From the NCBI GenBank assembly GCA_009694865.1, contig SICD01000005.1:1-43278 (forward strand): a stretch of DNA of 43,278 bases. Reading direction: 5' to 3'. The notes beneath the pieces were generated by a model, which was given only the letters and a program-made list of their open reading frames with translations, had not been told where the DNA came from and did not search any database. The position numbers were made by a program, and so were the translations under genes. Numbering within the stretch: the first letter of the stretch is position 1; each line of letters begins with the position of its first letter. This stretch comes from Candidatus Magasanikiibacteriota bacterium. GTDB lineage: Bacteria > Patescibacteriota > Patescibacteriia > Magasanikbacterales > GWA2-37-8. Below are positions 2,015 through 41,240 of the stretch, in pieces.

Positions 2015-2089
2015 ACGCTAGTCCTTGAACTCCAATCCAAACCGCAACGTAACTATTCAATTCTTTCCAACAAACAGCGCCAATCACCC

Positions 2090-2213
2090 ACAATGTCATT
2101 GCGAGGAAGAAGCCTCGCGGCGACTGACGAAGCAATCTTCACCACCGTTACCAACGCCATTGGTGAGGATTGCTTCGTCGTTCGTTCCTCACTCCTCGCA
2201 ATGACAGCGGGAA
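2090..2213. repeat. palindromic REP-like element, ORF-less
   Basis: gtcattgcgaggaagaagcctcgcggcgactgacgaagcaatc ... gattgcttcgtcgttcgttcctcactcctcgcaatgac; inverted arms. Confidence 0.85.
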
Positions 2214-2408
2214 AGAACTGAATAGTTACACCGCAACCCCTTGCCCCCCAGAGCAAATTATGGTAAAATAAACCCAGTTTTTCCAACCATAAACGGGTGT
2301 TACCAACACCCCCCGTGTACCCCCCCTGCGAGGGGGGAATCGCTGATTTTAATACTTTCGTACCTTTCGTAATTTAGCACATCTTAACGGAATTAATTCC
2401 ACCACCAT

Positions 2409-11963: not shown

Positions 11964-12152
11964 TTACTTCTTCGCCGTGCCGGTCTGCCGGCACTTCACG
12001 CAGAGGAGCGTGATCACCTCGCCCGCGTTGAAGCGGTCATAGGTGGGCTTCTCCACGCGGGCCGTCCCGCCGCACTGGCAGCGGAACCAACGCTTGCCCT
12101 CGTCCGTGAACTGGACGGAGGGGGCGGTGGTCGGCATGGCGGCGGGCAGCAT
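11964..12152 (-). CDS. small zinc-ribbon protein
   Basis: MLPAAMPTTAPSVQFTDEGKRWFRCQCGGTARVEKPTYDRFNAGEVITLLCVKCRQTGTAKK; CxC...CxxC. Start uncertain, no clear RBS. Confidence 0.55.
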   Translation of the reverse strand: MLPAAMPTTAPSVQFTDEGKRWFRCQCGGTARVEKPTYDRFNAGEVITLLCVKCRQTGTAKK

Positions 12153-12207
12153 CGGCTCGGGCGACCGTGCGCCCTGCCCGTTGCGGATGTAACCCCCGAC
12201 GCTTAGG

Positions 12208-12798
12208 CTAGAAGTGGCGCGAGCGGACCGGACGGCGACCGTCCAGCTCGTCGTCCTCGATGTCCTCGGCCGTGATGGCCGGGACGATCGGACGCAGCTT
12301 GGCCGCCGCCGCGAGAGCCGACTGGGCCGCGACGCAAATCGCGGAACCCTGGCGGTTGAAAAATCCGCCCATCTGGCCGTCGCTAAACGTCCACTCGGCG
12401 AAGCTTGACGCTTCGGAGTGGCTGGTTTCGACGAGACGGTCGACCAGCATGTCGCGCTCCGCCTTGTAGGCCAGGTCGTACTCGCGGTTGCGCTTGCGCA
12501 CCTCCGCGTACTGCGCCTCCGCCTGGGCCGGGTCGACCAACTTGACCCAGCCGTCGTCGTCGCAGGTGGCGACGCGGCGTCCCTGCATGTGCAGGGTGCG
12601 GGTCGAGGTCGACCCGCCGATGGAGTCGGCGCGGTTGGTGATGAACACCGATCCGTTCCGACCCCACGGGGCCGACTCGAACGCCGCGCGGAGCGCGTCG
12701 TACGCCTCCTTGCGACCGTTGTTGGCAACCTCGGCGGCGCGGGCCGCGGCCACGAGGCGGTTCCAGTCACAGGGGTGGGGGAAATTGATCGTCGACAT
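12208..12798 (-). CDS. hypothetical protein, GC-rich array gene
   Basis: MSTINFPHPCDWNRLVAAARAAEV... preceded by GGAAGGA RBS. Confidence 0.7.
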   Translation of the reverse strand: MSTINFPHPCDWNRLVAAARAAEVANNGRKEAYDALRAAFESAPWGRNGSVFITNRADSIGGSTSTRTLHMQGRRVATCDDDGWVKLVDPAQAEAQYAEVRKRNREYDLAYKAERDMLVDRLVETSHSEASSFAEWTFSDGQMGGFFNRQGSAICVAAQSALAAAAKLRPIVPAITAEDIEDDELDGRRPVRSRHF

Positions 12799-12964
12799 GA
12801 TGTCCTTCCGGGTGGTTAGCCCGCTCACTTAAATCCCGATAAAATCGGGACTGATCCGTTACCCATCTTTCAGGGGCGCTGAGTGAGTCAGCATTCCGGA
12901 TCATGGTTTCTTAACCGAGGTTCACATTACATTCGCACTCCGGCAGATACCGGGTGTAAATAAA

Positions 12965-13038
12965 TGCTCCTCGACTCAATCTCCAAAATAATTTGAAACT
13001 AAGTCGAGGACCCGCGGTGCGTTGCGGGACTCGAGTGC
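12965..13038 (-). repeat. intercassette element, copy 2
   Basis: Minus strand GCACTCGAGT-CCCGCaacgcaccGCGGG-TCCTCGACTTAG...GAGTCGAGGAGC. Confidence 0.75.
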
Positions 13039-13235
13039 GCTGATTTTTTGCTATCGCTCTCCGGTCTCGTAAACCAGCAAAGACTCCAAAGTGACGCCTG
13101 ACGCGGTAACTTCACGCGTTTTTCTTTTCTTCGCTTGATGTTGACCAGCGAATCTTCGTACTTGGCTTTTCATCCGCCAACGGCAGACTACTTCGCTTTT
13201 CCCAGGGGCTAGGAACCATTCCCCTGTGAGGAAGT

Positions 13236-13607
13236 TTAGCGCGCGGCGTAGGCCCGCACCTCCTCCTCGGTGAGAAAAAACGCGACGATGTTCTCGCCGC
13301 ACCTCTCCTCACTTCCGACCTCAATGTCCGGGTTGGTCCAAAAGGACTCCTCCCCGAACATTCCGGCGCCCGCCTCCCACGCCACGTGGAGGCGCCCGCC
13401 CTTTACGGAGAGCTTGAGCCACTGGTGCTCCAGCGGCTCTTCGTTCACCGGGAGGATCGCGGGATCCTCCCCACTCACCACCGCCCACCCATCCGGGTAG
13501 GCGGTGCGGAGCTCGATCTTGAGCTCCTCCACCCGGGCCTGGGCCCGGGTGGCCTCGTCCCGCGCCCCTTCGAGCGCCTGGACGAGTTCCTGCTTGGAGC
13601 TCGACAT
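13236..13607 (-). CDS. hypothetical protein, GC-rich array gene
   Basis: MSSSKQELVQALEGARDEATRAQARVEELK..., GGAGG RBS 5 nt before ATG. Confidence 0.7.
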   Translation of the reverse strand: MSSSKQELVQALEGARDEATRAQARVEELKIELRTAYPDGWAVVSGEDPAILPVNEEPLEHQWLKLSVKGGRLHVAWEAGAGMFGEESFWTNPDIEVGSEERCGENIVAFFLTEEEVRAYAAR

Positions 13608-13681
13608 GGTCGCCTCCTTACGAGTCGCTTCTCCTCGCACCCCTGTCGGCTTCTGGCCTTCAGTCGGATACAAAGTTCATC

Positions 13682-13767
13682 ACTCCTCGATTCACATCTC
13701 AAATTTTAAAATGTAAATCGAGAAGGGAAGCGTTGGATGTGCAATCCGCGACTTCCCCCTCGAGTGC
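13682..13767 (-). repeat. intercassette element, copy 3
   Basis: Minus strand GCACTCGAG-GGGAAGtcGcGGATtgcacATCCaaCgCTTCCC-TTCTCGATTTACAT...GTGAATCGAGGAGTG. Confidence 0.75.
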
Positions 13768-13888
13768 TATTTTTACGATACCGGCCTTGCGCCGGGGCAG
13801 TTTTGTTAAGCCAGCTTCTGCCAACTGGCCTTTAACGATATTGTGTAGCCTCCGACTTGGCGGTGGCGAACCGCCTATCGCCGGAAAG

Positions 13889-14899
13889 CTACTTGCAGCG
13901 GGGGCAGGGCATCTCCCGCGGGATGCCGTCCGTGTAGGTCCGGTCGGTCCACTGACCAGAGCCCGCGCAGAGGGGGCAGGTGCGCGCCGCCATGGCGCGG
14001 ACGCCCTCGAGCGTGGCCGCTCCGCCGATGAAACGGCCCGGGTGGCAGAAGATCGCCCCCGTGACGCCGCTCGCCTCGGCGAGCGCCTCGCCGCGCTTGC
14101 CGGCCCAGGCCGCGGGGAGCGGCTGGCGCATTTCGAAGCTCCCCTTCCGCGGGGGGACGGCCTGGATGAACCAGTACGTCCCGTCCTCGGACGGGTAAAC
14201 CACAAACTGCGCCGTGGCGGACGAATCCGCCACCAGGCCGGACCAGTCGAACGAGTACCGGTCGAACTTCACGACCGGATCGTCGCCCGCCTTGGCGATG
14301 GCCGCCGCCACCGCCGCCTCCTGCCGCGCCACCGCCTGCGCCTGGGCGATGACGCGGGCGAGGATTCCACCCGCGAACTCCACCGCGCGCCCGAAGGCGT
14401 CGTCGAAGTCGCGCGGCTCCTCGTCCCAGGTGGGGACGAAATCCCCCAACACCGAGGAGGTGTTGTAGGGGACCATCCCCGCCGGGAGGGTCGTCCCGAA
14501 CGTGACGCCGTTGTCGCTGGCGTCGATGTTCTGGACGAGGCCCTCGTCCACGAGCGCCGCGACGCGCTCGCTGCCCGCGATCTGGACGCCGTAGTGGCGC
14601 CAGACCAGCCCGAAGGCCGAGAACGGGACGCCGTTCTCGCGGACGCCGGCTCCACCCCGCTGGTGGTGGTCGAACCGGCCGGTGGCGGCGTCGTACACCG
14701 CCCCGACGTCCACCACCAGCTCGCACCCGGCGAGCACGGCCTCGTCGCGGGTGCGTACGAGGTCGACCTTCGCGATGCGCCGCAGGGCGGCGACCGCGAA
14801 GACGTCGTCCGCGTGGAACTCACCGTTGTGAGTTCAGACGCACATGCGCCGTCCGACGATGGCGGGGACGCCGCCGGTGTTGCTATCGTTGGTGGCCAT
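13889..14899 (-). CDS. MYG1/UPF0160-family metal-dependent protein with in-frame TGA at 14834-14836 and C-terminal CxxC zinc motif
   Basis: ATG at 14899 with AGGAGG RBS: MATNDSNTGGVPAIVGRRMCV*THNGEFHADDVFAVAALRRIAKVDLVRTRDEAVLAGCELVVDVGAVYDAATGRFDHHQRG...; C-term RTCPLCAGSGQW...PCPRCK. Confidence 0.85.
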
Positions 14900-14962
14900 G
14901 GTGTCCTCCTTGTTAGGAGTTTTCCTGTCGGACTAAGCGGCATGGCTACCACTCACAGGGAA

Positions 14963-15091
14963 TCTTGTCCGCAAAAGAGTGAACGTTTGCCGTCACTCCG
15001 GCTCCTCGGTACTTCCCCGAAGATTATTACCCCAACTGCTAACGCTTAGGGCTTCGCGCGAGAAGCAAATCTCTCTACCTGCTCCTCGACT
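14963..15091 (-). repeat. long leader repeat copy A (~129 bp)
   Basis: Near-identical to 16249-16375 (tcttgtccgcaaaagagtga.cgtttgccgtcactccggctcctcggtacttccccgaagattattacccca..). Confidence 0.92.
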
Positions 15092-15168
15092 CACGCTCCA
15101 AGATCTTTAAATTATTTTCTTAGTTCGTCAGTTGAGGACCCCGCGGTGCGTTGCGGGAATCCAAGTGC
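15081..15168 (-). repeat. intercassette element, copy 4
   Basis: Minus strand GCACTTGGATT-CCCGCaacgcaccGCGGGG-TCCTCAACT...GAGTCGAGGAGC; G-U compensated stem. Confidence 0.75.
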
Positions 15169-15175
15169 TTCATTT

Positions 15176-15631
15176 TTATTCTTCCTTTCCGCCAAACCAC
15201 AGAGCGATCTCTCGCTCCGCGGCCTCGGCCGAATCAGAGGCGTGGACGATATTGTCCACGCCGGAGGTGGCGAGCTCGAGAGCCCGCCACCCCGACTGAC
15301 CATCGCGCCACCTGGTCATCACCAGGTGGCGCAACTGGCCCGGGGCTGCCCGTCGGGGATCCGACGGGCCGAGCATCGCCCGGACGCGCGCCACCGCGTC
15401 CGGGCCGTCCACTACCAGGGCCATAACGGTCTGGCCCTGGTAGTACTCGAGCAAGCGGGCAAAAAACTCTTTGCCCGCGTGCTCGGCGTAGTGAGCCGCG
15501 ATCAGCTCGCGGCTCACTACGACCAGCTGCCGCCGGGACACCGTCCCGACGGCCTTCACCGCCGCCATGACCTCCAGCAAAAAATTCTGGAGACCGAGCG
15601 GCTTAACCATGACAAACGTGCGCATGGTCAC
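15176..15631 (-). CDS. ndk: nucleoside diphosphate kinase
   Basis: RTFVMVKPLGLQN, ARLLEYYQGQTVMALVVDGPDAVARVRAMLGPSDP, active-site DNIVHASDSAEAAEREIALWF; AAAGGAG RBS. Confidence 0.88.
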   Translation of the reverse strand: MTMRTFVMVKPLGLQNFLLEVMAAVKAVGTVSRRQLVVVSRELIAAHYAEHAGKEFFARLLEYYQGQTVMALVVDGPDAVARVRAMLGPSDPRRAAPGQLRHLVMTRWRDGQSGWRALELATSGVDNIVHASDSAEAAEREIALWFGGKEE

Positions 15632-15650
15632 GCTCCTTTCTGGAGCACTA

Positions 15651-15725
15651 TGCTCCGACTTTTATAGTGAACAATTTTCAAAATAAAAGTCGAAGGGTGA
15701 ACTGTGCAGTTCACCAATCGAGCGC
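15651..15725 (-). repeat. intercassette element, copy 5
   Basis: Minus strand GCGCTCGATT-GGTGAACtgcacaGTTCACC-CTTCGACTTTTAT...ATAAAAGTCGGAGCA. Confidence 0.75.
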
Positions 15726-15789
15726 AGAGGTTAGTTACCACTTTTTCCTTGCCACCTCGTGAGCAAGGAGTGGTTGCCCGCTGATGTTG

Positions 15790-16131
15790 CTAGCGGGCCG
15801 TGCGGGCGGAGGTGCGGACCTCCTGGAGATCCGAGATCGCCGTCTCCGGCCACTCGAACCCCGCCGCCCCGCGCACCGCCCAGCGGATCGTGGGGAACGA
15901 CCCGTACTGGCCGTGCCACTCGGCGAGCAAGACGCCCGCCACCGAGCTCATGCCGGGGAGCACGAGCTCGACCGTCTCGCCCTTCAGCAACTCCTCGCGC
16001 CCGGGCAGGGCGAGGAGGGTCTCGCGGACGTACTCCGCGAGCGCGCTTCCCTCCATGGGGAGGTTCGCCCCAACGAAGGGGGCAATCTCAAAGCCGGTGA
16101 CGGGGTGGCCGCTGAAATTGATCTTTTTCAC
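15790..16131 (-). CDS. Csx15-like protein; GTG start (alternative ATG at 16188)
   Basis: VKKINFSGHPVTGFEIAPFVG...GREELLKGETVELVLPGMSSVAGVLLAEWHGQYGSFPTIRWAV...ISDLQEVRTSARTAR matches my recollection of the Csx15 pattern (N-terminal NFSHPL, C-terminal LPG...AALLLAELHGRMGHFPTIVRL...LQAVRDAAR). Confidence 0.6.
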   Translation of the reverse strand: MKKINFSGHPVTGFEIAPFVGANLPMEGSALAEYVRETLLALPGREELLKGETVELVLPGMSSVAGVLLAEWHGQYGSFPTIRWAVRGAAGFEWPETAISDLQEVRTSARTAR

Positions 16132-16248
16132 TTTTTTTCCCGCCACTTTCTTTAGGTGGCGGTCCTCTGGTAACCCTGGCGGACTCATGAACGATAAAAC
16201 TATCCATGACAGGGCCCCGATCGTTGTAGAACGAATCGGGAATGGTTG

Positions 16249-16375
16249 TCTTGTCCGCAAAAGAGTGATCGTTTGCCGTCACTCCGGCTCCTCGGTACTT
16301 CCCCGAAGATTATTACCCCACGTGCTAACGCTTAGGGCTTCGCGTGAGAAGTATTTCTCTCTGTTACTCCTCGAC
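16249..16375 (-). repeat. long leader repeat copy B
   Basis: Direct repeat of 14963-15091, same orientation relative to the following gene. Confidence 0.92.
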
Positions 16376-16457
16376 TTAAATCTCAAATATAATTTTAAGA
16401 TTTTAGTTGAGGTGAGGAGCGCGCTGGTGCAAGCGTCGCTCCTCTATTCACTCGTGC
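16366..16457 (-). repeat. intercassette element, copy 6
   Basis: Minus strand GCACGAGTGAATAGAGGAGCGacgcttgcaccagcgCGCTCCTCA-CCTCAACTAAAATCT...AGATTTAAGTCGAGGAG. Confidence 0.75.
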
Positions 16458-16525
16458 TACTTGAGGTTGGTTGACCCCGTATTGAGCACCTCTTAGCTCG
16501 AAACGGGTTGGGGGCGACGTGCCCC

Positions 16526-16813
16526 CTACGCCACCTTGAGGGTGGCGAGGGCGGCCGCGAAGCGGCCGTCGCCCAGCTTGGCCACGCGGCCCAGCTGGCT
16601 CGGGCGGCCCACGGGGGCCGGGGCCGGCGTGAGCCGGCCGTCCCACGCCTTGCGGGCCCGACCGTCGCCGGCCGTCCCGCGCGAGGCGGCGGCGACGATC
16701 GCCGCCGAGCGGGCCGCGGTGGCCCGCTCGTCCGCCTGGCGGGCGGCCCAGCCCGCCCACTCGTTCTCAACGGTGGAGCGAGGGGCGGGGCGGATCATCA
16801 TGGTCTTCTTCAT
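16526..16813 (-). CDS. hypothetical Ala/Arg-rich protein, first gene of array
   Basis: MKKTMMIRPAPRSTVENEWAGWAARQADERATAARSAAIVAAASRGT...; RBS weak. Confidence 0.5.
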   Translation of the reverse strand: MKKTMMIRPAPRSTVENEWAGWAARQADERATAARSAAIVAAASRGTAGDGRARKAWDGRLTPAPAPVGRPSQLGRVAKLGDGRFAAALATLKVA

Positions 16814-16819
16814 TTGATT

Positions 16820-17622
16820 TTTGCCGGTCGCTTCTTAAGCTGCACCGGCTCCTCTGAAACACCACAACACCTGTTCAACTAACACGACATACGTCGTACT
16901 AGCCAGGCGTTCTGATGCCGCAACAAATAACAAAAAACATATTTATTATTTCTTGCGATTAAATTGTCAAAGGTCAATCGTCATCCGTTTGCTTAGTACT
17001 TATTCTGCTTAGAACTTAGTACTGGCTCGTAATACCGACTGTCCCCTGCTCCACCGACTAGATCCTTCGCTTGCGCTCAGGATGACAAGAAGGTGAAGAA
17101 GGGACGCACTCGATACTACTAGGTCTAGTTAGGCCTAGAGGAGACCGCGAGGGGCTAGGGAAGTCTTGCGACCTCAACCTTGGCACACTCTCCGCCTCAC
17201 TCCGTAAAGTGGCTTGCGCCACCACGGAGCTAAAATTTACTAGAAGAGCGAAAATTCTCTTCGCCACTATCAATCTCTCCCACGCTCGTTTTAACGAGCG
17301 TGCCCCGAGTAAAATCGAGGGGCTTCTTTTCAGTGGCGACTAGATTTCTCAAACTCTTGATACTGTTGAAAAGAACAGGGCCGAATTGCTTCAACCGATG
17401 AGAGGACAAGTTTGCGGGTTCGTATGTATTACTTTTTGAACCTCTGTCTTGTCACACTCGTCAGTGGAAACAATAAACCTCTCTTTTATGGAGAGAGGTT
17501 GTCGAAATTTGACATTTGTTATTTGATATTTGTCATTCTATCAGCTCCTCTCTCCAGAGGCTGATAGACTGTTGATTGTAATGAGCTTGCCTTGTTAGGG
17601 GCTTCCGGGTCTTTCAGCCTAA
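16820..17622 (-). ncRNA. long structured leader / candidate noncoding RNA upstream of the GC-rich array
   Basis: No convincing CDS; many stem-loops on minus strand: TTGTTAGG..CCTAACAA, CTATCAGC..GCTGATAG, CCTCTC..GAGAGG, ACGCTCGT..ACGAGCGT, GTGGC..GCCAC within CTCCG..CGGAG. Confidence 0.45.
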
Positions 17623-28175: not shown

Positions 28176-29576
28176 GAACAATCGTGGTTGTTTCGTCCCA
28201 GCAGGTTTACTCAAAGGAAATGGGTCAACCACGCCATATTGCCCATCAAACCCGGGCACAATTTTTACCTTACCTGCGCGCATATGCTGTATTCCCAAGG
28301 CAATATTTTTGTCATTCACAGCCTGTTCAATATCCTGTATATCCTTATATAATAAAATCTCAAATTCATTACCCAGCGCTGGCACCAGCCGCCGATACTC
28401 CACCTCAACCGCTTTGCTCTTTTTTCCAACCCCTAAACACGCGCTAATAATTTCCCGGAGCGGAACAATATATTTGTGGGGGATAAAATTTTCTTGAATG
28501 ATTTTATCTTCCGATCGATCCGATAGTTCATCCACGCGGTACAAAACTCCCACCGTGACTTTTTTCTTGCATACGGGACAAATTCCCTTATTTCGTTTCG
28601 TCTCGGCTGGCGTACAAGAAAATTTACAGTCCCGGTGTCCATCGTAATGGTACATCCCCTCCTCCGGATAAAATTCAATCGTGTATAAAAACTTTTTCTT
28701 ATCCCCGGTTTTTAAAATTCGCCGAATCTCATCATACGTAATATCTTTTTCATTCTCAAACGCAAACACATTAGCCTCGCGCCCCAAATTATCCAAACTG
28801 TGGGCGTCCGAATTTGAAACAAGCGTAATGTTGTCTAAATTCGTGAGACGGCGGTTCATGGGCGGGTCACTAGAGAGGCCGGTTTCAATCGCAAAAATTT
28901 CCGGCGTTAACTCTTCAAAACATTCCTCCAAAGAATCGTAACCAGACTTAGATCCAAACACCGCAAACCACGGCGTCCACGCGTGCGCCGGAATTACCAT
29001 CATGCGTGGGTCAATATCCAGGCACATCTTTACAATCTCTTTCCCCGTAATCCCAATAATTGGCCGGCCATCGGCATGCAAATTGGCTCCATAATCAAGC
29101 AACGCTTGATTAAACCGCTTCGCCACCGCCAAATTTGGAGCATAAATGAGTAGGTGCAAACGCCGCACTTTCTCCTTATGTTTGTAAATACAAGAAATCT
29201 CCGTCCCAACAATAAATCGCACCGGCGTCGACATTGTCATCCTGAGTCGGAGCGAAGAGCCTGTCCTGAGGCTCGCGCCGAAGGAATCTAGTTCATTCGA
29301 TTGGCCAACTAGATTCTTCGCTTCACTCAGAATGATATGTGACTGAGCCAGAGATCCCTCCTGCGGTCGGGATGACAGTTGGTACAAACCACTCTTCCCA
29401 ATCTCTTCCAAATTCTCTTCCAAGTGTTCCATCCACTTGGGATGCGTAAAATCCCCTGTCGACACAATCCCAACCCCCTTCTCCCCACACGCCTTGGCAA
29501 TTGCGGGCAACTCCAACAGCGGCGAGCACGCCCGCGCGTATTTGGAATGAATGTGGAGATCGGCGACCACCTCCAT
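28173..29576 (-). CDS. PHP-domain protein, endonuclease Q-like
   Basis: MEVVADLHIHSKYARACS, STGDFTHPKWMEHL, ISNSDAHS-like LVSNSDAHSLDNLGREANVF, zinc-binding CKFSC...CPVCKKKVTVGVLYRVDELSDR. Confidence 0.85.
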   Translation of the reverse strand: MEVVADLHIHSKYARACSPLLELPAIAKACGEKGVGIVSTGDFTHPKWMEHLEENLEEIGKSGLYQLSSRPQEGSLAQSHIILSEAKNLVGQSNELDSFGASLRTGSSLRLRMTMSTPVRFIVGTEISCIYKHKEKVRRLHLLIYAPNLAVAKRFNQALLDYGANLHADGRPIIGITGKEIVKMCLDIDPRMMVIPAHAWTPWFAVFGSKSGYDSLEECFEELTPEIFAIETGLSSDPPMNRRLTNLDNITLVSNSDAHSLDNLGREANVFAFENEKDITYDEIRRILKTGDKKKFLYTIEFYPEEGMYHYDGHRDCKFSCTPAETKRNKGICPVCKKKVTVGVLYRVDELSDRSEDKIIQENFIPHKYIVPLREIISACLGVGKKSKAVEVEYRRLVPALGNEFEILLYKDIQDIEQAVNDKNIALGIQHMRAGKVKIVPGFDGQYGVVDPFPLSKPAGTKQPRLF

Positions 29577-30295: not shown

Positions 30296-30682
30296 TTAAT
30301 TAGTTACTCTCCAAATTTGCAGAGGCCGTACTCTAAAATTAACTAATAAACCCAAACGTAAATTCAATGCTTCTAAATAACGCAGTAGCTGAATTTTGTG
30401 ATCTTTAGTGAGTCTGTCCGTGGCTTTAAACTCAATAACTATTTTATTATCGACAACTAAATCGGCACGAAAATCTCCTATGACCACGCCATCTATTACT
30501 ACATGTAACGACGCTTCAGCAACATACGAGATGCTTTTGCTTTTCAAGAATGCGCAAACAGCTTTCACATAATGTTTTTCCTGGAACTTAGTTCCTAACT
30601 TATTTTGAACATCAAACAAGACACCATTAAGTTGATAGGATAGTTCTTGGTAAATAATTCCTCCCATATTCTCTATTCGCAT
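30296..30682 (-). CDS. GxxExxY protein
   Basis: IIYQELSYQLNGVLFDVQNKLGTKFQEKHYVKAVCAFLKSKSISYVAE...IVIEFKATDRLTKDHKIQLLRYLEALNLRLGLLVNF. Confidence 0.9.
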   Translation of the reverse strand: MRIENMGGIIYQELSYQLNGVLFDVQNKLGTKFQEKHYVKAVCAFLKSKSISYVAEASLHVVIDGVVIGDFRADLVVDNKIVIEFKATDRLTKDHKIQLLRYLEALNLRLGLLVNFRVRPLQIWRVTN

Positions 30683-34143: not shown

Positions 34144-35115
34144 TCAAGCATGCAGCTTAACTAACTCTACCAAATCCTCATACCTCTCCGCAATCATAAC
34201 TCCAACTTCCTTAAGCGCCGCCTCTTTTTCCGCCGCCCCCTGTCCCCGCGCCACAATGGCTCCCGCATGCCCAATGTTCATGCCTTCGGGGAGCATCTGC
34301 GCGAATTTACCACCAATATAAATCGCAAGCGGCTTAGTAAATTCTTTATTTTTAATTAATTCCACAATTTCAAATTCATAACTCCCGCCATGCTCGCCAA
34401 AAATTATTACCGCTTTCGTTTGTTCATCTTTTTCATACAATTTGAGCACATCGGCATATGTCGTTCCCATCAAGAGGTCTCCCCCCACGTGCACGGCCGC
34501 GCTTTGGCCTAAGCCATTTTTGGATAATTGCCACGAAAGCTCATTTGTCATACCACCAGAACGAGAGATAACCCCAATACTACCCGGTTTAAAAATATCG
34601 TTGACTAATGGTCCGCCGATCACACCAATCCGCCCCACGCCCGGATTAATCGCACCAAGCGAACTCGGACCCAAAATGCGAATATTTTTTTCTTTCGCCG
34701 CCGCCAAACAGTACGCCGTGTCTTTAATGGGGATACGTTCCACAAACACGTTAATGAGTGCAATATCGTTTTCAATCGCTTCTAAAATTGCGGCCTTGGC
34801 GGCAAATGGTGGCACATAAATCACCGAAACGACATCGCTCAACTTGTCATTCTGAGCGGAGGCTCGCGCCGGAGTCGAAGAATCCATTTCACCAAACGTC
34901 AAGGGATCCTTCGCTTCGCTCAGGATGACAGCCATCGCCTCCTTCACCGTATCAAACACCGGCTTTCCTTCCACTTCCTGCCCACCTTTTTTGGGCGTCA
35001 CACCACAGAGGACATTGGTGCCATAATCAAGCATGGCTTTGGCACCTTTTTGGCCTTCCTTGCCCGTGATGCCTTGGACCAGGACTTTGGTGTTTTTAGA
35101 AATGAGGATGGACAT
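34144..35115 (-). CDS. succinyl-CoA synthetase alpha-like / citryl-CoA synthetase small-subunit-like
   Basis: VLVQGITGKEGQKGAKAMLDYGTNVLCGVTPKKGGQ, GVISRSGGMTNELSWQLSKNGLGQSAAVHVGGD, NIGHAGAIVARGQGAAEKEAALKEVGV. Confidence 0.88.
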   Translation of the reverse strand: MSILISKNTKVLVQGITGKEGQKGAKAMLDYGTNVLCGVTPKKGGQEVEGKPVFDTVKEAMAVILSEAKDPLTFGEMDSSTPARASAQNDKLSDVVSVIYVPPFAAKAAILEAIENDIALINVFVERIPIKDTAYCLAAAKEKNIRILGPSSLGAINPGVGRIGVIGGPLVNDIFKPGSIGVISRSGGMTNELSWQLSKNGLGQSAAVHVGGDLLMGTTYADVLKLYEKDEQTKAVIIFGEHGGSYEFEIVELIKNKEFTKPLAIYIGGKFAQMLPEGMNIGHAGAIVARGQGAAEKEAALKEVGVMIAERYEDLVELVKLHA

Positions 35116-35123
35116 AATGGATG

Positions 35124-35525
35124 CGTCATTGCGAGCGACCGGAGGGAGCGTCGCAATCCCCTTATTTTACCAGGGAGTTAATTCGTTAAATAAATCTCTC
35201 AACTCAGGATTAAATTTGTGTATCAACTCATCTTTCTTTTTTCTAGAATAATTTTTTATCTGCTTCTCGCGCGCAATCGCATCGTCCGGATGGCTGTATT
35301 CTTCGTAGTAAACTAATTTATTAACATTATATTTTTTTGTAAAATATCCGCCATTACCTTCCTTGTGGTCTAACACCCGTTTATGTAGCCCACTCGTTAC
35401 ACCAACATATAATACGGCATTACTGTGATTGGCCATCAGATAAGCATAATAACGTTCTTCCTGCATACGGAGTTTCTAAGCAAGGGGATTACGACGTCGC
35501 TCGTTCCTCGCTCCTCGTAATGACG
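35124..35525. mobile_element. palindromic element with GIY-YIG ORF in the loop
   Basis: Left arm 35124-35163 cgtcattgcgag..gcgtcgcaatcccctt; right arm 35482-35525 aaggggattacgacgtcgctc..cgtaatgacg; inverted. Confidence 0.72.
35167..35466 (-). CDS. GIY-YIG nuclease family protein
   Basis: YYAYLMANHSNAVLYVGVTSGLHKRVLDHKEG...KLVYYEEYSHPDDAIAREKQIKNYSRKKKDELI. Confidence 0.93.
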   Translation of the reverse strand: MQEERYYAYLMANHSNAVLYVGVTSGLHKRVLDHKEGNGGYFTKKYNVNKLVYYEEYSHPDDAIAREKQIKNYSRKKKDELIHKFNPELRDLFNELTPW

Positions 35526-36718
35526 CTACTATCGCGAATCATCTCCGCCAGCACCTGCGCCGTCTCGCTCATTCCCGTTTCTTTTTTAAACATTTTGATA
35601 TTCAAATTATTCCGTTTAACACATTCTTCCAAAAGCGCAAAACCCTCCGCGCTCTCCGTTCCATCGCGCCGAACAACAATTGGATAGGCCGGCTTAATCT
35701 CATCTAGCGCGTCTACAATACCCATAAACGTTTCTTTGATATTGGTAAAGTTAGCCACCACTCCGCACATCCAGAGTCCCTTGAGTCCAGGCTTGGAGAG
35801 AACAACCTTGGCGAGTTGGTACACTTTTTCGCGCGGCGGATTGCCGGAATACTCGGTATAGTTTGAAGGCTTAAGACCAGCGCCGGCTAAAGCGTCCATG
35901 TTGGCAATCGACGCTCCCCCACCGTTCAAAATCATGGCAATATCACCATCAAGCTCAATATATTTTCCAGCCGTACCACGGTAATACGCTTCTCCCTCAT
36001 CAATTTTTTTCGCCGCAATCTCTCGGTCGGTCGGCAGTCGCCCCATCATGGTACGTGGTTCCAATTCTTTCCATTCCTCGTGACGATAGAACGCATCATC
36101 GTCAATCGCCACTTTCGCGTCCGCCGCCACCCAGCGACCATCAGTGGTTTTAACGAGGGGGTTAATTTCTACAACACGAGTGTCTTCTGCAAGGAAACAA
36201 GACCACAGTTTATTTTTAATGTCATCCTGAGGCACAGCCGAAGGATCTAGTTGGCCACCTAGATTCTTCGCTTCGCTCAGAATGACAGATTGACGCACGT
36301 CTAAAAATTTCTTTTCTATCTGCTCCTCCGCCACATCCTCAATGTCCATGCCCCCTTCCGAAGAATAAATAATCACCGGTTGTTTTTTGTTGGTATCGTA
36401 CGTTATCGAGAAATAATGCTCCTCGGCAATATTCAATTTTTCTTCAATTAAAAGCGCGGACACATACTGCCCGCGAATTTGCATGTCAAACAATTCCGCG
36501 CAGGCCATTACCACTTCCTGAATGGACGAACAAAATTTAATCCCATTATTTTTTCCGCGCTTGCCGCTTAACACCTGCGCCTTAACCACCACATCCGTCA
36601 CGCCGAGGCTGTTGTACGCATCCATAAAATTATCACCACGCTTAACCACCGCGCCTTTAGGAGTGGCAATGCCATGCTTAGCAAATAATTTTTTTCCTTC
36701 AAATTCGTAGAGATTCAT
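35489..36718 (-). CDS. ATP-grasp succinyl-CoA synthetase beta-like / citryl-CoA synthetase large-subunit-like
   Basis: MNLYEFEGKKLFAKHGIATPKGAVV, VEINPLVKT, EYSGNPPREKVYQLAKVVLSKPGLKGLWMCGVVANFTNIKETFMGIVDAL resembles ATP-citrate lyase. Confidence 0.85.
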   Translation of the reverse strand: MNLYEFEGKKLFAKHGIATPKGAVVKRGDNFMDAYNSLGVTDVVVKAQVLSGKRGKNNGIKFCSSIQEVVMACAELFDMQIRGQYVSALLIEEKLNIAEEHYFSITYDTNKKQPVIIYSSEGGMDIEDVAEEQIEKKFLDVRQSVILSEAKNLGGQLDPSAVPQDDIKNKLWSCFLAEDTRVVEINPLVKTTDGRWVAADAKVAIDDDAFYRHEEWKELEPRTMMGRLPTDREIAAKKIDEGEAYYRGTAGKYIELDGDIAMILNGGGASIANMDALAGAGLKPSNYTEYSGNPPREKVYQLAKVVLSKPGLKGLWMCGVVANFTNIKETFMGIVDALDEIKPAYPIVVRRDGTESAEGFALLEECVKRNNLNIKMFKKETGMSETAQVLAEMIRDSSVITRSEERATS

Positions 36719-40844: not shown

Positions 40845-41240
40845 TTATCCCTCTTTCTGTTTTGATTGATACGTAGTTTTGATAAACAAATTAAGTTGAA
40901 AATGGATTAAGTCGGCGTGCTTTAGCAATTGATTGAACTGCTCTACAGTTATACGGCCCCGTTTATAGAGCAGGCAACACCAATGCTTGACCTCAAAAAG
41001 TGAACCACGAGAATTATAATAAAATTTGATTCGATCCAAGTAATGAAACCTACCATAACCTTCGGCAATATTTGCGCCGACTGAATCAACTGCTCTTATA
41101 AATTGGTCTCCAAAAATCTTTTTATCGTGCCAATCCAATCGTTCATATATTTGCCAGCCAACTTCACATAACTCTAAAGAAATTTTATAAACAAATACAT
41201 CACCTAATTTTGTATACCCTTCCATAAAATATTTGTTCAA
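40845..41240 (-). CDS. four-helix bundle protein (S23/23S rRNA IVS protein family)
   Basis: YKISLELCEVGWQIYERLDWHDKKIFGDQFIRAVDSVGANIAEGYGRFHYLDRIKFYYNSRGSLFEVKHWC. Confidence 0.92.
   Translation of the reverse strand: MNKYFMEGYTKLGDVFVYKISLELCEVGWQIYERLDWHDKKIFGDQFIRAVDSVGANIAEGYGRFHYLDRIKFYYNSRGSLFEVKHWCCLLYKRGRITVEQFNQLLKHADLIHFQLNLFIKTTYQSKQKEG

Follow-up and report, generated by a model that had tools for sequence, protein, structure and literature searches.

CGTC REPs (Di Nocera et al. 2013, PMC3733652) carry a CGTC or TGTC tag and a stem beginning with AT, and are mostly arranged as head-to-head dimers. They are found in five phyla, include the Rickettsia (RPE) and Neisseria repeats, sometimes lie inside genes, and according to the authors have no associated transposase genes; one of several suggestions in the same paper is that enzyme-bearing CGTC elements vanished early and that the CGTC REPs are heading for extinction. 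The elements described here resemble this superfamily in tag, stem start, prevailing head-to-head arrangement, spread over several phyla and occasional intragenic location, but they differ in that a GIY-YIG gene is regularly enclosed, loops are often longer, and a CCA tail is not found throughout.

The REPIN-RAYT systems (GTAG REPs; PMC3116915, PMC3733652) are similar in having an enzyme gene between inverted REPs, dispersed non-autonomous REP dimers, and separate enzyme lineages for the several REP types. Membership in that class was nevertheless rejected because the flanked gene here encodes a GIY-YIG nuclease instead of a Y1 (HUH) transposase; in addition, the tag sequence is CGTC rather than GTAG. 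GIY-YIG homing endonucleases (I-TevI-like, free-standing or intron-borne) share the nuclease fold and, by inference, the character of a selfish gene that splits its target, but no intron is present here, no NUMOD domain was seen, and the gene is flanked by a dispersed repeat family instead of a single cognate allele. Among solved structures, the best sequence matches to the nuclease are 1ZG2 and 1YWL (5e-10 and 2e-7), which are hypothetical UPF0213 proteins; these small YhbQ-like GIY-YIG proteins are comparable in size and single-domain fold, but the two have no reported function or REP context, and the relation rests on sequence only. Rickettsia palindromic elements likewise lie in frame within protein genes, as do palindromes in both CoA ligase genes at our locus, but our genome also contains a relative of the palindrome that carries an ORF.

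The terms "palindrom" and COG2827 are absent from the survey of the GIY-YIG superfamily (PMC1564403), and in the open-access literature searched, no paper connected GIY-YIG proteins with REP, RAYT, REPIN, dRS3 or extragenic palindromes. Most subscription papers and all bioRxiv preprints were outside the scope of that search, and novelty is not proven.

Architecture of the 402-bp insert

The DNA analyzed, called the window below, is a stretch of 43,278 nt from Candidatus Magasanikiibacteriota bacterium (GTDB Patescibacteriota; Magasanikbacterales; GWA2-37-8), comprising positions 1 to 43,278 of the forward strand of contig SICD01000005.1 (GCA_009694865.1). The own genome is 987 kb in 55 contigs and is 94.7% complete. 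The features of interest are as follows.

2094 to 2206, no strand assigned: REP dimer without an ORF, from a different subfamily (TGTCATTGCGAG) and lying within a MITE (2049-2229)
34144 to 35115, minus strand: alpha subunit of CoA ligase, flanking gene
34845 to 34930, no strand assigned: in-frame REP dimer in the alpha gene, CTGA type
35124 to 35163, plus strand: left CGTC-REP arm (CGTCATTGCGAG...GTCGCAATCCCC), a hairpin stem with an unpaired CGTC tag
35167 to 35466, minus strand: GIY-YIG nuclease ORF of 99 aa, group A (PF01541; invariant columns)
35482 to 35525, minus strand: right CGTC-REP arm in the opposite orientation to the left one; the beta-subunit ORF ends in it (final residues and stop)
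35489 to 36718, minus strand: beta subunit of CoA ligase (ATP-grasp), its C-terminus running into the right arm
36220 to 36287, no strand assigned: in-frame REP dimer in the beta gene, CTGA type, apparently common to the congener

The insert (35124-35525) is 402 bp long and consists of two inverted REP arms (CGTCAT...ATGACG) enclosing the nuclease ORF; it begins with CGTCATTGCGAG...GTCGCAATCCCC at 35124, ends with GGGGATTACGACG...CTCCTCGTAATGACG at 35525, and splits the CoA ligase beta/alpha gene pair. Both arms are copies of a single REP type. As single-stranded DNA, the left arm is predicted to form one hairpin (-8.3 kcal/mol, z -1.66), and the right arm alone folds poorly (z +0.87). The ORF matches Pfam PF01541 at 53.2 bits (cut-off 22.6), and the fold residues Tyr, Tyr-x-Gly, Arg, His and Glu are invariant among the 13 small GIY-YIG members of the own genome; with both the domain match and the catalytic residues present, it belongs to the GIY-YIG nuclease superfamily. 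The beta reading frame overshoots the alignment end of most relatives by about 11 aa, and its C-terminus, VITRSEERATS*, is encoded by the right arm. The earlier note had claimed that a GIY-YIG gene splits a REP-type palindrome and interrupts a two-subunit enzyme operon, and that the right arm encodes the last beta residues; both claims held, the first on the evidence of the arms, the PF01541 match and the flanking CoA ligase genes.

REPs in the own genome

In a 399-kb sample of the own genome, 240 closed-stem units with a GTCAT tag were counted, versus 25-61 for six permuted control tags, and the tag was preceded by T or C in 222 of the 240. Within 400 bp or less, 60 pairs in this sample were head-to-head and only 20 had other orientations. 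Genome-wide, the tag pattern matched 426 times, compared with 38 for the reversed pattern. Both the tag and the predominance of head-to-head dimers place the insert arms in the CGTC-REP superfamily. CCCG-type arms have a stem of 8-9 bp, a loop of 4-5 nt and a tail near CCA; in the majority of the arms the loops are longer and interrupted, and the tails include CTCTG, CTAGTT and CCCCTT. The tails of nuclease-adjacent REPs recur among REPs elsewhere in the 399-kb sample. Separately, 48 of the 60 head-to-head dimers join unlike stem classes, often ATCCT with ATTCT; the cruciform of a perfect homodimer would be more stable, and it is possible that mixed-class dimers thus limit deletion.

The earlier note had also claimed that the arms reconstitute the palindrome family of an ORF-less copy at 2090-2213, and this held only in part. 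That copy belongs to the same superfamily but to a different subfamily, with a TGTC head and another tail, and it is nested in the MITE at 2049-2229, whose terminal repeats (GTAACTATTCARTTCTTTCC) surround the REP dimer; for these reasons, it is not an empty allele of the GIY-YIG element. The dimer folds strongly as single-stranded DNA (z -8.65). The REP part of the MITE exists in six copies of 99-100% identity (window 2049-2229 and contigs C5, C17, C22, C47 and C53), and the MITE has therefore probably been active recently. Closer cousins of the insert are ORF-less CGTCAT...ATGACG dimers such as L272:7717-7831, L276:641-738 and L283:4320-4412. At L285:3783-5519, the MITE terminal repeats lie 1.7 kb apart and enclose a dUTPase-like ORF, another ORF and a group-A nuclease, an arrangement that might represent either two MITE remnants or a single larger element.

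As a second correction to the earlier note, two further REP dimers lie in frame within the alpha and beta genes; they are missing from most relatives. At the position of 34845-34930, the alpha gene of the congener carries another REP type; the beta dimer at 36220-36287 has a single-strand folding z of -3.78. A third CGTC-REP dimer within a protein gene, again with the frame intact, is present at window 29235-29377.

Same-type REPs enclose many group-A nucleases

PF01541 has 14 matches in the own genome, UvrC and the 13 small genes. Six of the small genes form group A, the other five being 43-49% identical to the insert nuclease. An inverted REP pair surrounds each of the six, every pair with its own sequence type, and the ORF occupies the place of the short spacer in ORF-less dimers.

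For wider comparison, 170 group-A loci were assembled: 90 from the order and class, obtained by profile searches and including the own genome, and 80 from other groups. The latter are selected best matches from named genomes, picked by protein similarity and not randomly. The tag pointed inward on both sides at 49 of the 86 order-level loci with full flanks, as against 1 of 89 control genes (neighbors from the same loci and the CoA-ligase loci). Typed arms on both sides were present at 90 of the 170 loci, and in 85 of these 90 pairs the two arms were of the same type; 2000 shuffles yielded 22.6 such pairs on average and never more than 37. Pairing of same-type arms is thus shown. No tagged REP was visible on either side of 36 of the 170. 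Matched arms were found in Bacteroidota, Bacillota, Pseudomonadota, Chloroflexota, Verrucomicrobiota, Cyanobacteriota, Fibrobacterota and Actinomycetota, among others, and in Neisseria gonorrhoeae the nuclease gene lies next to dRS3-type repeats (GTCATTCCCGCGCAGGCGGGAATC).

Two aspects of these counts require comment. Our initial null for arm pairing used mispaired flanks, and only 35 of 86 loci exceeded its 95% level; this null was judged too strict because the tag is common to all loci, and type matching and control genes were used instead. In addition, the motif and type classes were set after viewing the own-genome and order-level loci, and the loci from other phyla therefore constitute the cleaner test of breadth.

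An intron-borne homing endonuclease was considered as a candidate and rejected: Rfam found no intron, only tRNAs, at L015, L009 and five loci of the sister group B (see below).

Co-travel of arms and nuclease, and REP load

On the nuclease protein tree, arm type required 32 changes, compared with 70.4 when types were shuffled. In 43 of 68 cases in the order-level sample, arm type was shared with the nearest nuclease of another family (shuffled mean 15.6-15.7, maximum 30 in 5000), and this result remained after excluding all pairs with any similar flanking gene. Within the order, the gene and its arms thus travel together at unrelated sites. Across phyla, co-segregation of arm type with nuclease was not significant (34 versus 28.6 expected), but only 95 alignment columns were available and the deep branches were unresolved.

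The number of group-A genes correlated with tag excess over 95 genomes (Spearman 0.40, p 5e-5, without correction for kinship). When four REP types were counted separately, the median number of further REPs elsewhere in the genome was 16 for the nuclease's own arm type and 2 for the other types (p 1.4e-10); the observed share was reached in none of 5000 permutations. In genomes without group A, the median was 1. REP load is thus specific to the type carried by the nuclease. This association is compatible with a nuclease that spreads REPs and also with one that is confined to genomes rich in its targets. Some REP-rich genomes (G011, G034, G027 and G006) contain no group-A gene, which may have been lost or never present. 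The genomes and loci are phylogenetically non-independent, and several of the association tests share data.

RAYT was examined separately as a REP mobilizer and rejected, there being no PF01797 match in the own genome and no detected effect of RAYT presence on REP excess in the 95 genomes. The own genome is incomplete, and a RAYT could sit in the missing part.

Empty sites

Neither a REP nor a nuclease is present at the beta/alpha junction in the 27 relatives in which both genes could be placed. The two genes overlap in the congener (gap -4 bp) and are separated by 1 to 23 bp in many other relatives; longer gaps contain unrelated sequence. A second case is found in Azospirillum lipoferum 4B, where a nuclease gene with REP dimers on either side lies between sufB and sufC. 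The corresponding spacer is short and has no REP or nuclease in A. ramasamyi, A. oryzae and Azospirillum sp. B510, which are about 95% identical to A. lipoferum 4B over the matched parts only. Judged by these occupied and empty sites, the element is an insertion. No target-site duplication or exact insertion boundary could be read at the CoA-ligase and Azospirillum empty sites, as the junctions are too diverged. Among the Shinella/Rhizobium plasmid loci, matched arms were seen at L286, L289 and L290 and none were visible at L287; an exact empty site for these loci was not found.

The earlier note had named two outcomes that would refute it, the lack of empty-site alleles and the lack of a statistical association between the nuclease family and the palindrome. 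Neither was obtained: empty sites exist at both junctions described above, the association is very strong by inward tags, same-type pairing and type-specific load alike, and the interpretation is supported. Its proposal that ORF-less copies are either MITE-like derivatives or targets mobilized by the GIY-YIG protein is still the right pair of alternatives; we favor the first, and mobilization by the enzyme remains an inference.

Proposed explanation and its rivals

The reading that we prefer, and hold to be somewhat more likely than not, is that REP-GIY-REP is an autonomous, compact mobile REP element and that the ORF-less dimers are its derivatives. The nuclease would recognize a REP hairpin of its own type, as a single strand or cruciform, and cut there; host repair would then copy either the REP-ORF-REP unit or a short ORF-less REP dimer to a new place, the dimers being mobilized in trans. 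Since GIY-YIG enzymes are not known to pass through the covalent intermediates of transposases, the ends would have to be joined by host repair rather than by the nuclease. On this model, CGTC REPs would stand to the GIY-YIG gene as GTAG REPs and REPINs stand to RAYT transposases. Cleavage of REPs, copying by repair, and the nuclease driving rather than following REP spread are all inferred, as is the direction of causation. Against the element reading stand the gene-free REP-rich genomes, the 36 bare loci, the non-significant co-segregation across phyla, the absence of a readable target-site duplication, and the lack of a known covalent intermediate in GIY-YIG enzymes.

The REP-flanked nuclease is the first candidate enzyme for spreading CGTC REPs, a very common class without a known mover. 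Same-type REP enclosure in many phyla, with matching load, brings a question that has been open for more than 10 years to a direct biochemical test. Were the reading correct, the small genes that are annotated as "GIY-YIG nuclease family", mostly without context, would gain a biological role, and it would account for in-frame repeat peptides such as VILSEAKNL that recur in predicted proteins.

The rival that survives best, and which is possible, is a homing parasite: a free-standing GIY-YIG homing-type gene cuts ORF-less REP dimers and is copied into them through homologous repair, the REPs themselves owing their spread to some other, unidentified process. In its favor, GIY-YIG is a classic homing-nuclease fold (PMC1564403), the ORF takes the place of the short spacer of ORF-less dimers, REP-rich genomes without the nuclease gene exist, and the sister group B adjoins tRNA genes, some with a partial tRNA copy opposite, as expected of target-splitting genes. 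Against it, CGTC REPs have not been reported to flank any other enzyme gene (PMC3733652), no RAYT was found in the own genome, and genomes that lack the nuclease of a given type have few REPs of that type. Most of these objections weigh only weakly because a homing gene also needs abundant targets, and the rival predicts most of the patterns that the mobile-element reading predicts.

A host-serving, structure-specific nuclease, that is, a resident repair enzyme for REP cruciforms or hairpins kept near REPs for regulation (e.g., as terminators), is most improbable. The superfamily does include the cellular structure-specific enzymes SLX1 and UvrC (PMC1564403), and REP dimers fold strongly as single-stranded DNA, but the gene is patchily present, occurs as several divergent copies per genome at unrelated sites, and interrupts operons, and empty sites exist in relatives. 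Coincidence, whereby intergenic REPs are so common that any small intergenic gene is flanked, gains some support from the abundance of tag matches in the genome but is virtually ruled out by the single control gene with inward arms, the same-type pairing, and the repetition of the pattern in many phyla.

The mobile-element reading can be taken further, to a form that we think slightly more likely to be wrong than right: a GIY-YIG nuclease of ~95 aa spreads CGTC REPs, which make up one of the two bacterial REP superfamilies, a bare nuclease together with host repair moving hairpin-ended units, and a sister lineage uses tRNA genes similarly. If so, this would be a class of transposable element without DDE, HUH, serine or tyrosine recombinase, or reverse transcriptase.

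Group-B genes and other observations in the window

Group-B GIY-YIG genes, both in the own genome and in relatives, adjoin tRNA genes of many kinds. The tRNA-adjacent loci are as follows.

Own genome: L011, L013, L017, L021
Relatives: L300-L302, L304-L306, L308, L311, L317, L319 and others

The tRNA is on the 3' side of the ORF at 18 of 22 tRNA-adjacent loci, and at 9 of the 22 the opposite side holds a partial copy of the same tRNA that exceeds the 99% level of mismatched pairs. Since these 22 were picked for a nearby tRNA, the counts describe the arrangement and not its frequency. In the own-genome cases, the partial tRNA copy is interrupted by short hairpins. From this arrangement, it is conceivable that small GIY-YIG genes use structured targets more generally.

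Elsewhere in the window, positions 12001-17000 form a 5-kb island of 59-70% G+C with unusual ORFs, most of the remainder being 41-49%; the island may be foreign. A 23S rRNA intervening-sequence protein and a PDDEXK_3 protein, kinds that are often orphan or mobile genes, are encoded at 40845-41240 and 30296-30682, respectively.
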